A DNA stretch of 64,000 nucleotides. Origin: Kiritimatiellia bacterium. GTDB taxonomy: Bacteria > Verrucomicrobiota > Kiritimatiellia > RFP12 > UBA1067. The stretch covers positions 62,001 to 126,000 of the forward strand of contig JAFTCL010000032.1 of the NCBI GenBank assembly GCA_017454745.1, given 5' to 3'. A program made the position numbers and the translations under genes. Below are positions 53,139 through 60,534 of this stretch, piece after piece. Position 1 is the first letter of the stretch; every line of letters starts with the position of its first letter. The notes under the pieces were generated by a model that saw nothing but the letters and a program-made list of their open reading frames with translations, was not told the origin of the DNA and did no database searches.

Positions 53139-53163
53139 TTATGTGTTTTTCTGAGGAGTGGAA

Positions 53164-54528
53164 ATGAAACGCAAGACATACGAAACCCTGCTTGAATGGA
53201 AGAGAACGAGTAACGGCAAGTCCGCAGTCATGTTGGACGGTGCACGGCGCGTAGGCAAGAGCTACATTGCTGAAGAGTTCGCCAAAAATGAATATGCCGC
53301 CTACCTTGTTGTTGATTTCGCCACGGCACCGCGAAAGGTGAAGCGCTATTTTGAAGAATATCTCGACAATCTCGATATATTCTTCATGTATCTTTGCTCG
53401 GCTTATCGGACAACCCTTGTTCCCGGGAACAGTGTCATCATATTTGATGAAGTCCAGCGTTTCCCACGCGCCCGCGAGGCCATCAAGTACCTTGTCAAGG
53501 ATGGGCGCTTCCACTATATCGAAACCGGGTCGCTCATATCCATCCGCAAAAACGTCAAGAACATTGTAATCCCCTCTGAGGAATACCACGTGAAGATGTT
53601 TCCGATGGATTTTGAGGAATTCGCATGGGCGACCGGCAACGGGGCCATGCTCCCCTTGATTGAACGGCGATTTAAGGAACGACTTCCCTTGGGCGCTGAT
53701 ACGCACCGTCAGATAATGGACGTGTTCAGGCAGTATCTTGTTGTCGGCGGCATGCCTCAGGTTGTCGATACGTTTGTGACAACCCACGACTTGCACAAGG
53801 TCGAGTTTGAGAAGCGTAATATTCTTAGCCTCTATCGCGCCGACATACACAAGTTTGCTGGTGCGCTCAAGGAGAAAGTTGTGTCAATATTCAGCGAGAT
53901 ACCGGCTCAACTCTCCAAGCATGAAAAGAAGTTCTCGGTGTCGGTTCTTAAGGAAGGCGCGCGCGTCCGCGATTACCACGGCGCGTTCGAATGGCTTAAG
54001 GGCGCGATGACTGTCAACCTCTGCTACGGGGCGAGCGAACCAAATATCGGGCTGCGACTCAATATGGACAGGACGACGTTCAAGTGCTATCTTGGCGATA
54101 CGGGGTTACTCGTCAGTCTCGCGTTCGACGAAAACGAACTCGCTTCGGCAGATATCCACAACAGGATTCTTAATGACGACATTGAGCTAAACCAGGGAAT
54201 GATCGTCGAGAATGTTGTGGCGCAGATGCTTCGCGCCGCCGGGCACAAGCTCTACTTCTACTCCTGTTCTGACAGAACGGACACGGAAAATCGCATGGAA
54301 ATCGACTTCCTTGTTTCCAAGTCGCGTACCATGCCGCAGCAAAACATTTCTCCCATCGAGGTTAAGAGTGGGCGCAAGTACTCCACCGTTTCTCTCGCCA
54401 AATACTGTTCAAAGTACGCGGCGTTCCTCGATACGCCATTCGTGTTGCACAAAAAGGACGTTATGACAAAGGACGGCGTTGTGTATCTACCGCTCTATAT
54501 GACCTATTTGCTCTCGCGCAGGGTATGA
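53164..54528 (+). CDS. AAA_14/DUF4143 ATPase
   Basis: 454 residues. N-terminal AAA: Walker A DGARRVGKSYIAEEFA near residue 22, Walker B VIIFDEVQRFPRAREAIKYL near 92, sensor-like YIETGSLISI near 117. C-terminal DUF4143 with YLVVGGMPQVVDTF near 193, YLGDTGLLVSLAF near 303 and the PD-(D/E)XK-like MEIDFLVSKSRTM..PIEVKSG near 380-405. ATG 53164 follows GAGGAG; an in-frame GTG two codons earlier is possible. The family is common and variable among gut anaerobes, and its role is not known; defence or mobile-element functions have been proposed for related ATPases. Confidence 0.88.
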   Translation: MKRKTYETLLEWKRTSNGKSAVMLDGARRVGKSYIAEEFAKNEYAAYLVVDFATAPRKVKRYFEEYLDNLDIFFMYLCSAYRTTLVPGNSVIIFDEVQRFPRAREAIKYLVKDGRFHYIETGSLISIRKNVKNIVIPSEEYHVKMFPMDFEEFAWATGNGAMLPLIERRFKERLPLGADTHRQIMDVFRQYLVVGGMPQVVDTFVTTHDLHKVEFEKRNILSLYRADIHKFAGALKEKVVSIFSEIPAQLSKHEKKFSVSVLKEGARVRDYHGAFEWLKGAMTVNLCYGASEPNIGLRLNMDRTTFKCYLGDTGLLVSLAFDENELASADIHNRILNDDIELNQGMIVENVVAQMLRAAGHKLYFYSCSDRTDTENRMEIDFLVSKSRTMPQQNISPIEVKSGRKYSTVSLAKYCSKYAAFLDTPFVLHKKDVMTKDGVVYLPLYMTYLLSRRV

Positions 54529-57368: not shown

Positions 57369-58313
57369 CTACGAAATCGTGAGCCAAGAGGCTGTCGATT
57401 CTGCCGTCCATGCGGCATCGGGTGTAGCATAGACGGCAACATTACCATAGGCCCCGCTCGCCGCCGCCGTAGCCGTTTCAGGTGTGATGGAAAGTGAGGC
57501 AGTCTTTGTCCCCTCCTGCACAATCGTGAATGTTGCCGTGCCGATGGAGACCGTTCCCGTGCGACGCGCGAAACTCGGATTGGCATTGATGGCAAGCGTT
57601 AGCACATAGTCGCCATAGCCCGTTGCCTTGTCAATGACTGAAATCCATGAGGCGTTGGGCGTAACCGTCCATTGCGTCGTTGAAAGTGCATTGATAGTCA
57701 CGGCAATGACGTCAGCGTTCTCGTCCTTGGTAATGGATTCTGGCGAAAGACTGACATCCACACCCGTTTGATTCACGGTGAATGTCTTGCCGCCAATAGT
57801 GAGTGAGCCGATGCGCGAGACAACTCCAGAATATTCCGCAACGGTATAGTTCACCGTTCCAACGCTCATGCCCGATGCAGGCGAGACTGTAATCCAGTTG
57901 TTGTTGGCAACGGCAGACCACGAAACACCAGCATCCACCGTAACAGAGATCGAACCGTTTCCGCCATAACGGTCAAAGGTTGCGGATGTCGGGGATATTG
58001 TCGCGTCATAACCATACTGCGTGACGGTGTACGTGTTGCCGCCAATGTTGATATGCCCGATGCGAGTATCCGCAGTTGCGTTGGCGTTCACGATATAGAC
58101 CACCGAACCGGCTCCCGTCCCCGAGGAACCAGAATTGATGACAATCCAGCTTGAGTCGCTTGTCGCCGTCCATGAGCCATCGCCCTGCACGACAACCGAT
58201 GCGGCACCACCCGCCTTCTGGAATGTCTTGGCGGATGTGGTGATCGTCACTGCCGCCATCGTATACATTGCCGCGCCCATCGCGACAAGCATTGCTATGA
58301 GTTTCTTTTTCAT
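57369..58313 (-). CDS. 5' piece of the broken surface-protein gene: signal peptide and BACON domains
   Basis: 314 residues. A signal peptide (MKKKLIAMLVAMGAAMYTMA) is followed by three complete BACON units and part of a fourth (WTATSDSSWIVIN; WSAVANNNWITVS; WTVTPNASWISVI; WTAESTASWLTIS). The last stops at TAG (57369-57371) in the middle of the domain. In the same frame, the missing rest is still there after the TAG (GTVGAGNGNIKYVASANPTLSNRTGQIVV in sense, down to a TAA at 57171), so one base change, for example CAG to TAG, would explain the stop; a frameshift then separates it from the LamG piece. ATG 58313 has AAAGGA before it. Confidence 0.75.
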   Translation of the reverse strand: MKKKLIAMLVAMGAAMYTMAAVTITTSAKTFQKAGGAASVVVQGDGSWTATSDSSWIVINSGSSGTGAGSVVYIVNANATADTRIGHINIGGNTYTVTQYGYDATISPTSATFDRYGGNGSISVTVDAGVSWSAVANNNWITVSPASGMSVGTVNYTVAEYSGVVSRIGSLTIGGKTFTVNQTGVDVSLSPESITKDENADVIAVTINALSTTQWTVTPNASWISVIDKATGYGDYVLTLAINANPSFARRTGTVSIGTATFTIVQEGTKTASLSITPETATAAASGAYGNVAVYATPDAAWTAESTASWLTIS

Positions 58314-58326
58314 TGTTGTCTTTCCT

Positions 58327-58614
58327 TTAACAAATTGGTATCAACAACACCGAATAGTATTCGTGGGATTTTGCGTTTCCTCCCGCAATTGCCCAAACCC
58401 AGTCACTTCCACAGAAAAAAGGGACAACTATTAATTTGTCTGAATATGGGCATTTTGCATCTTGCCCAATCAATGATGCAATCATCCTCTTTACAGCATC
58501 TTTGTCATTGAAAGAATCGATGTTGAAATTCACATCACGTTCCTGATGAACTAATTCACGTCCATCATCAAGAGTGGGCGAGACTCGCCAGATATACTCA
58601 TCAAATTTAACCAT
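58327..58614 (-). CDS. Small protein of unknown function upstream of the BACON gene
   Basis: 95 residues, ATG 58614 behind AAAGGAACGAAAAG, 13 bases before the BACON gene on the same strand. No family was recognised. Features: an acidic N-terminus (MVKFDEYIWRVSPTLDDGRE), a helix NDKDAVKRMIASLIG near residue 42, and a Trp/Phe-rich end (VVPFFCGSDWVWAIAGG). No signal peptide, so it should stay in the cytoplasm. It is the first gene after the structured leader at 58615-58910 and so the first target of any control there. Confidence 0.65.
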   Translation of the reverse strand: MVKFDEYIWRVSPTLDDGRELVHQERDVNFNIDSFNDKDAVKRMIASLIGQDAKCPYSDKLIVVPFFCGSDWVWAIAGGNAKSHEYYSVLLIPIC

Positions 58615-58910
58615 CTTTTCGTTCCTTTCTGTTGTGGGGTTCGTCGTTTTGCTGCCGCAAGGCAATCGGAACGAAAAGAAAACCTCTCTTCGTGTCCCAG
58701 TAGAGGTCTTAGGAAACCATGAGGAAACACAAAGAGAGGTAAGCGCATAACACGCTTCCTCTGCAAGGTGTCGTCCTCGTTGAAAGTTCCTAAGTTTCTA
58801 CTGGCGACTGCTTTGCAGCGGTTTGCAAAAATGGGTGTCCGGAGGGTGGAAGAGGATGTCGGCCCCCATACGTGGCTTGACGCTCCTAATCAGTTCCCCG
58901 AACTGAAAAC
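58615..58910 (-). ncRNA. Structured 5' leader RNA with mutually exclusive stems
   Basis: About 300 nt between a promoter and the 95-residue protein gene, with no long frame. Stems on the minus strand, in order of transcription: a CAGTTC-GGG-GAACTG hairpin near 58890-58904; arm A (58786-58804) pairs over about 18 bp with A' (58697-58717); inside it a 10-bp hairpin B (58753-58762 with 58735-58745); arm C (58727-58740) pairs 14 bp with C' (58682-58695), followed by TTTTCTTTT. C overlaps B and C' lies beyond A', so A-A' and C-C' cannot both form fully. This is the arrangement of an attenuator or riboswitch. I recognise no known class. Confidence 0.6.
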
Positions 58911-58916
58911 GGCGTG

Positions 58917-58945
58917 AGATTATCATATCCCGCTGGCAAAGTCAA
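58917..58945 (-). promoter_or_regulatory. Promoter of the leader RNA and BACON operon
   Basis: Minus strand TTGACT (58940-58945), 17-bp spacer, TAATCT (58917-58922). A GATAAT box lies at 58919-58924 with a 15-bp spacer. Confidence 0.55.
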
Positions 58946-59111: not shown

Positions 59112-59169
59112 GAAGTGGATTGACTTTTGTGAATCAATAATGTTGCACTTTTGCGGTGAAGGGATAACT

Positions 59170-60534
59170 ATGAAAAGAAAAGTTTTATCGCAAATGGTGG
59201 CGTGGAATCAGCGTAAGGTACGAAAACCGCTCGTGCTGATGGGCGCAAGACAGGTCGGAAAAACCTGGCTTTTGAATGAATTCGCAAAAACGGTTTACGG
59301 AGAAAACGCCGTTTATGTAAATCTAATGAAGATGAGGGCGTTGCGTGGTCAATTGGAAGTCGGCGACATCACCCCGAAGTCTGTGCTTGAGAAAATCGGC
59401 ATTGCGCTTGATGTCGATATTGTTCCCGGTAAGACCTTGCTGCTGTTGGACGAAATACAGGAATCGTCTAACGTTTTGACATCGCTAAAGTTCTTTAACG
59501 AAGATATGCCGGAGTTGGCGATAGTTGCCGCCGGTTCGCTCTTGGGGCTTGCGGTTGGCCGTGCGGCGGAAAACCGTTCGACAACGAATGGGGAAAATCC
59601 CAATGAATCGCGCGGATCATTTCCTGTCGGTAAAGTCAATCTTCTCAATGTTTTTCCTTTGGATTTCCCGGAATTTGTCAGGGCTATCGGGAAAAATCGG
59701 CTCGCGGATATTCTTGAAAGCGGGGTGCCGTCGGCTTCTGTGCCATATGCAGCTGAACTCGCGGAGATTCTCAAGCGTTATTTTTTGGTTGGCGGGATGC
59801 CGGAGGCTGTAAACACGTATGCAGATACTAACAGCATGCGTGTTGTTAGGGACGTGCAGACCGAGATATTGTCCGCTTACGATACCGATTTCGTCAAGCA
59901 TGCACCCCTTTCGATGCTTCCGAAAATCCGCCTACTGTGGAATTCAATCCCATCGCAACTTGCAAAGGAAAACAAGAAATTCATCTATTCCGCGTTGAAG
60001 TCAGGTGCGCGAGCCCGCGAGTACGAGTCGGCTCTCCAGTGGCTTGATGACGCGGGAATGGTTAGGCAGGTGTATCGTACGAGAACGCCGCGTTTGCCGC
60101 TAAAATCGTATCGGGATTTTTCCGCCTTTCGTCTCTACATGCATGACGTGGGGCTTCTCGGCGCGATGAGTGACTTGCCGGCTTCTGCCGTCCTTGAGGG
60201 CAACGAAATGTTCACGAACTTCAAAGGGGCGATGGCGGAGCAATATGTCTTGCAGGAGCTGACGGCAAATGGATTCGAGCCTTGCTATTGGACGAACGAT
60301 GCAGGCAACGCCGAGGTGGAGTTTGTGATACAGGGCGAAAGAGGTGTTTTCCCGGTTGAAGTTAAAGCCAGAATCAACACTCAGGCAAAGAGTCTCAAGG
60401 TATTTCGCAAGCTTTTCTCCCCGCCGTTCTCGTTTCGGACTTCGTTGGCGGTAGCGCGCGATGGCGCAGAGGTCAAAGATGTCCCGCTCTACGCATTCGG
60501 CCCCGCCGTAGGGAAATTAGTGAATATGGGTTAG
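59170..60534 (+). CDS. AAA_14/DUF4143 ATPase (second intact copy)
   Basis: 454 residues, the same length as the 53164 protein but diverged. Walker A MGARQVGKTWLLNEFAKTVYG near residue 25, Walker B LLLLDEIQESSNVLTSLKFF near 85, IVAAGSLLGLAVG near 120, FPLDFPEFVRAIG near 163, YFLVGGMPEAVNTYA near 210, YMHDVGLLGAMSD near 325, and the PD-(D/E)XK-like AEVEFVIQGERG..FPVEVKA near 390-410. ATG 59170 follows GAAGGGATAACT. It ends the accessory island; its base composition is less GC-rich than the flanking core genes. Confidence 0.88.
   Translation: MKRKVLSQMVAWNQRKVRKPLVLMGARQVGKTWLLNEFAKTVYGENAVYVNLMKMRALRGQLEVGDITPKSVLEKIGIALDVDIVPGKTLLLLDEIQESSNVLTSLKFFNEDMPELAIVAAGSLLGLAVGRAAENRSTTNGENPNESRGSFPVGKVNLLNVFPLDFPEFVRAIGKNRLADILESGVPSASVPYAAELAEILKRYFLVGGMPEAVNTYADTNSMRVVRDVQTEILSAYDTDFVKHAPLSMLPKIRLLWNSIPSQLAKENKKFIYSALKSGARAREYESALQWLDDAGMVRQVYRTRTPRLPLKSYRDFSAFRLYMHDVGLLGAMSDLPASAVLEGNEMFTNFKGAMAEQYVLQELTANGFEPCYWTNDAGNAEVEFVIQGERGVFPVEVKARINTQAKSLKVFRKLFSPPFSFRTSLAVARDGAEVKDVPLYAFGPAVGKLVNMG

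Follow-up and report, generated by a model that had tools for sequence, protein, structure and literature searches.

What is the role of a leader RNA that can fold in several incompatible ways, in a lineage where regulatory RNA has hardly been looked at? The question is raised by the window considered here, a stretch of 64,000 nucleotides from a Kiritimatiellia bacterium, where the minus-strand segment 58901-58615 separates a gene for a DUF4143 ATPase from an operon coding for an orphan protein and a BACON-domain protein. The original prediction, made from the letters alone, had seen there two long interlocking stems, A-A' and C-C', a hairpin B, and in their competition the hallmark of an attenuator or riboswitch of no recognized class. 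The regulatory RNA of uncultured gut Kiritimatiellae appears almost unstudied, and our search of the literature retrieved no paper combining 'Kiritimatiellae' and 'riboswitch'. We argue here that the leader is probably an RNA switch acting in cis, with two states and of a class so far undescribed, organized by the pairing of six strands, each with its neighbours only.

The leader and its surroundings

The predicted fold of the 321-nt leader reaches -113.7 kcal/mol, where dinucleotide shuffles give -87.6 +/- 6.3 (z -4.15, with none of 100 shuffles as good). All three predicted elements are found on the minus strand, within a base or two of where they had been placed. A-A' consists of two stacked helices: an outer one, P1 (CCAGTAGA, 58804-58797, with TCTACTGG, 58704-58697), and an inner one, K (CTTAGGAA, 58794-58787, with TTCCTAAG, 58715-58708). 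C (CCTCTCTTTGTGT, 58739-58727) faces C' (ACACGAAGAGAGG, 58695-58683), which runs directly into TTTTCTTTT (58682-58674). Hairpin B spans 58762-58735, and its 3' arm is common to B and C.

Upstream, a candidate promoter had been proposed at 58917..58945 on the minus strand. Its hexamers, TTGACT (-35) and GATAAT (-10), can indeed be read there, but they are separated by a 15-nt spacer and a strict scan for spacers of 16-18 nt does not list them; the promoter of this copy is plausible, not optimal, and probably weak. In two other copies of the leader (L054 and L073) the motif TTGAYW-17-TATTAT stands upstream of the core. Between promoter and core lies an optional 5' domain (58836..58901, minus strand; TTCGGGGAACTGATTAGGAGCGTCAAGC...GCCGACATCC...CCGGAC), kept in a subset of copies, some 23 of which were aligned by eye, and missing in others. 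This domain is conserved and looks structured. A shorter form of it occurs alone, with no core, at locus L058 (4700-5000, minus strand), downstream of a TTGACT-TATAGT-like promoter and before a gene resembling those of nucleotidyltransferases; the domain may represent an RNA motif in its own right. Several copies that do not have the 5' domain (L048, L049, L050, L051 and L065) display, just upstream of the core, a purine run resembling a ribosome site followed by ATG ATT TAA, a two-codon frame. With regard to attenuators of the leader-peptide type, no conserved open reading frame is seen across the core alignment. It may be added that two genes for AAA_14/DUF4143 ATPases (53158-54528 and 59140-60534) flank the BACON operon.

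A family of leaders in the Kiritimatiellae

Does this RNA belong to a known class? Rfam 15 returned no match to the window leader up to an E-value of 5, nor to eight representative loci up to an E-value of 1, the sole exception being a viroid motif (E 0.28) that falls short of its own cut-off. No riboswitch or leader class known to Rfam is thus matched by its covariance model, T-boxes included, and we found no description of the RNA in the literature searched.

The leader is by no means isolated. A nucleotide search retrieved four copies from the window's genome, and 31 of 60 relatives gave matches. A covariance model (R1) built from 39 copies then matched 106 of the 162 genomes in the order to which the window belongs, as many as 18 times in a single genome, as well as 103 of 338 genomes sampled across the class, among them one more family outside the order; a single genome outside the class matched among 388 sampled from the phylum. 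These genome and copy counts are minima, since scoring was confined to the best candidates of each genome. A sequence pattern was further scanned against 84,980 species, and its matches fall almost only in metagenome-assembled genomes that are nameless or labelled Kiritimatiellae, Verrucomicrobia or Lentisphaerae, mostly from ruminant guts; those bearing a name are almost all Kiritimatiellae. The one match labelled Clostridia that fits the model lies at the end of a contig and could result from faulty binning. A match on a viral contig (L182) fails the covariance model. The leader is one member of a multi-copy class with hundreds of relatives, which neither Rfam 15 nor the literature searched includes. 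We regard it as a new class of cis-regulatory RNA, a putative riboswitch-type attenuator with a translational arm.

A fold supported by covariation

Compensatory change is plentiful in the homologues for both of the stems said to compete, A-A' and C-C'. Together with the failure of Rfam to place the RNA, this sustains the attenuator-like or riboswitch-like reading of the original prediction. In the alignment of 39 copies, the nested helices P0, P1, K, P2 and P3, which make up what we call the ON fold, are paired in 96% of cells. Changes on both sides of a pair are seen in 22 of the 38 pairs, amounting to 251 cells, where shuffling gives 73 +/- 6 and sliding the partners no more than 36, and several pairs of P1 and P2 take all four Watson-Crick types. 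Stem A splits into P1 and K. In P1, whose strands are the outer halves of A and A', 97% of cells are paired, six of the seven pairs show two-sided changes and the 3' strand covaries accordingly in the alignment. In K, formed by the inner halves, six of seven pairs do so as well, with covariation both in the alignment and in an alignment-free test (z -26). P2 is 99.7% paired, with two-sided changes in six of ten pairs. What precedes these genes is, in short, a structured domain of a 5' leader conserved by covariation, as in riboswitches.

Conservation extends to nucleotides that the ON fold leaves unpaired, namely GAAA and UUUC around K, GGC/GCC, and UUGCAG (alignment A1), and these recur in divergent copies. 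In K, two hairpin loops may be in contact. The hairpins that would carry these loops, H1 and H3, each reach significance in one set of copies, H1 in the divergent ones only (z 5.5) and H3 in the main subtype only (z 6.7), in a test where one negative control was also raised (z 2.8).

Six strands complementary to their neighbours

The core of the argument is that the strands of the conserved domain have more than one partner. Read in the direction of transcription on the minus strand, strand V (58805..58818, CTGCAAAGCAGTCG) can fold on itself (P0) or pair with W (58753..58778), the 5' half of helices P2/P3, which would act as an antiterminator. Strand X (58721..58745), which holds C, is either the 3' half of P2/P3 or the 5' half of a predicted intrinsic terminator, whose 3' half is Y (58683..58696, corresponding to C') and whose U-run is TTTTCTTTT (58674..58682). 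Y may instead pair with D (58668..58678, CTTTTCGTTCC), and D is in turn a perfect 11-bp complement of the ribosome-binding region SD (58615..58625, GGAACGAAAAG). In the same 39 copies that support the ON fold the X-Y helix is 94.5% paired, and in every one of the 39, column 101 finds a partner both in column 55 (in W) and in column 139 (in Y). The U-run shows as a T fraction of about 0.5-0.73 at positions 16-24 after P1 in 113 copies.

These alternatives were also examined with no alignment at all. The six strands were cut from 78 dissimilar loci, and the complementarity of partners from the same locus was compared with that of partners taken from other loci, over 3000 permutations. All five neighbour pairs exceed chance (V:W, z -6.8; W:X, -26.7; X:Y, -16.0; Y:D, -5.6; D:SD, -5.4), none of the 3000 permutations doing as well in any of them, whereas nine of the ten non-neighbour pairs (V:X, V:Y, V:SD, W:Y, W:D, W:SD, X:D, X:SD and Y:SD) are not significant across the same 78 loci. 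The permutations ignore phylogeny, and the non-neighbour nulls are drawn from the very same sequences; as these pairs stay at chance level, relatedness should not by itself create the neighbour signal. The tenth non-neighbour pair, V:D, also exceeds chance (z -4.2), for which the relay offers no explanation. Earlier versions of the test, with other strand cuts, agree, D:SD ranging from z -5.4 to -7.0 over 77-96 loci. V:W owes its signal to the divergent copies (z -12.0), since the main subtype shows almost no variation in either strand; when the subtypes are split, Y:D drops to a marginal value within the main subtype (z -1.9), and D:SD does so within the divergent copies (z -1.5).

The expression platform therefore overlaps the conserved domain, X being specific for both W and Y. 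The two ingredients of an attenuator, a terminator with its U-run and an antiterminator exclusive of it, are visible at the level of sequence, in the covariation of X:Y and W:X and in the U-run. P1 and K cross the X-Y helix, with almost no linker between the 3' strand of P1 and Y, so that the two arrangements should be mutually exclusive. The chain of alternative stems leads as far as the ribosome-binding site, so that control probably extends to translation. In about 12 copies, mainly from another family, the ribosome site lies within Y and the ATG comes directly after the U-run, so that X-Y would there block translation outright. When 141 copies are forced into either state both form, ON being predicted to be lower by 9.2 kcal/mol on average, and lower in 128 of the 141; with kinetics left aside, this counts against the formation of OFF. 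ON may be the default, or folding kinetics and a signal may decide together.

Genes placed downstream

A start codon with its ribosome site follows the leader within 160 nt at 118 of 144 loci, against 17 of 144 on the mirror side, counting genes of at least 80 codons with a plausible ribosome site. In the window, the first gene predicted to be regulated (58327..58614, minus strand, with its ATG at 58614) codes for a 95-aa orphan protein with no Pfam match and no homologue among 59 relatives, and the second (57369..58313, minus strand) for an exported BACON-domain protein (PF19190, 3e-21; PF13004, 4e-17). The leader does stand ahead of a small-protein/BACON operon here, as first described, but this is one of many copies and the RNA is not specific to such operons: other copies in the same genome precede genes for a papain/lectin protein, a leucine-rich repeat protein, an NYN protein and a lipoprotein-like protein. 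The downstream genes are mutually unrelated and enriched in exported or surface proteins. Among 125 downstream proteins scanned, 18 have BspA-type leucine-rich repeats and 12 a PEP-CTERM signal; the others include papain-like peptidases, lectins, formylglycine-enzyme-like proteins, ankyrin proteins, acyltransferases, GtrA, NYN proteins, protein kinases and DNA methyltransferases, with restriction-modification also represented. No pathway shared by these 125 genes was found.

In four pairs of loci (L001/L037, L222/L223, L206/L215 and L233/L236), from different genomes or from the same one, the leaders are 86-97% alike in the midst of unrelated flanks, and similarity stops at the U-run or at the start codon; the leader seems to spread, or to be kept, as a unit. 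In two species of one genus the leaders (L244:1444-1804, and L189 on the minus strand, with its end near 1793 of the reverse complement) are 97.5% identical over 361 bp. From the ATG onwards, however, the lipoprotein-like gene differs: the two proteins share only 27% of their amino acids, except at a nearly identical C-terminal end (99 bp, 89%). It is as if the gene body had been exchanged, or had diverged very fast, between two fixed ends.

A proposed two-state switch

The computations show selection on each of the neighbour pairings, and they show the U-run and the placement of the RNA before a gene. What we infer beyond this is mutual exclusion of the folds in the cell, activity of the terminator, the direction of control, and the existence and nature of a signal. 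The mechanism that we propose would operate as follows. During transcription, V, W, X, Y, D and SD would each pair only with their neighbours. In the ON state, W-X (P2/P3) would be locked by P1 and K, Y would pair with D, and both V and the ribosome site would be free. In the OFF state, V would capture W, X-Y would form the intrinsic terminator before the U-run, and D would hide the ribosome-binding region. A signal would set which state prevails by determining whether the compact P1/K/P2/P3 domain holds; most likely this domain is the sensor, and stabilizing it would turn the gene ON. Extended to its full scope, the proposal is that of a new riboswitch class restricted to Kiritimatiellae and close relatives, where one global signal would set the repertoire of cell-surface and accessory functions, the six-strand relay coupling termination to ribosome access; we put this forward tentatively, at somewhat less than even chances.

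What might the signal be?

A sharper form of this explanation, which comes close to an even bet, is that of a riboswitch in the strict sense, with the P1/K/P2/P3 domain directly binding a small molecule or an ion that selects the ON fold. Unpaired nucleotides conserved even in divergent copies, a junction with a possible loop-loop contact in K, and many copies per genome ahead of different genes are what one would expect of it. Against it, no ligand is known, and the downstream genes share no pathway, unlike those of most metabolite riboswitches. Cyclic di-GMP is an unlikely ligand, as GGDEF proteins are encoded by 8 of the 162 genomes of the order, all of them devoid of the RNA. The gene for the c-di-AMP synthase (DAC) is present in 146 of these genomes, so nearly universal that its profile is uninformative; c-di-AMP is a possible ligand, but an unsupported one.

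It is rather unlikely that the antiterminator is held or broken by a protein, either a dedicated RNA-binding protein or a specialized NusG of the LoaP/RfaH kind, acting on surface and accessory genes. The regulated genes do resemble the targets of such factors (surface proteins, acyltransferases, GtrA, restriction-modification), and a second gene of the NusG family is present in many genomes, many of them of family f1. However, family f3 and the f4-g22 lineage, rich in the RNA with up to 18 copies, show a single NusG match, which leaves a NusG paralogue unsupported as an obligatory partner in these two lineages. No recurring regulator gene is seen at the loci, and the elements known to respond to NusG-type factors are far simpler RNAs than this one.

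Another unlikely scheme, and one we credit still less, does away with any partner: the leader would switch through kinetics, ions or temperature, or act as a fixed insulator with partial readthrough. Both folds are intrinsically stable and the relay could work as a co-transcriptional timer with no ligand, but a bare timer would not require conserved unpaired nucleotides. Finally, it is very improbable that we are dealing with a recombination site or with the extremity of a mobile DNA element, whose palindromes would merely resemble RNA structure: leaders up to 98% alike do stand before unrelated sequences, their similarity ending at the U-run or the ATG, but their orientation is fixed relative to the gene, G-U pairs and the U-run sit on one strand, D covaries with SD, and collections of phages and plasmids yielded no match, which also speaks against a plasmid or phage origin.

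Comparison with known systems

With six strands complementary in order, this RNA is an unusually clean case, where evolution by itself reveals both conformations of a switch and their link to translation. The class is widespread and richly supported; as its two-state logic is defined and natural copies are many, a direct search for its signal is within reach. How does it compare with systems already described? With terminator riboswitches it shares its place in a 5' leader, a domain that has a strand in common with an intrinsic terminator, an antiterminator as the alternative, and multiple copies per genome; it differs from them in having no known ligand, no Rfam match and unrelated downstream genes, and in the extra relay step that reaches the ribosome-binding site. 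Riboswitches for c-di-GMP (GEMM) likewise occur many times in a genome and precede surface and exopolysaccharide genes, but the present RNA has no match to them in Rfam, and the genomes that carry it have no GGDEF proteins. The kissing-loop riboswitches for purines and guanidine (guanidine-II) may have a counterpart in K, if, as the data partly support, it joins two hairpin loops; the sequence and layout of this RNA are different. With the leaders of LoaP/RfaH antitermination it has in common accessory and surface operons, a leader RNA and a bypass of the terminator, here a predicted one; it is by contrast far larger and more constrained, and no specialized NusG is seen in two lineages rich in it.
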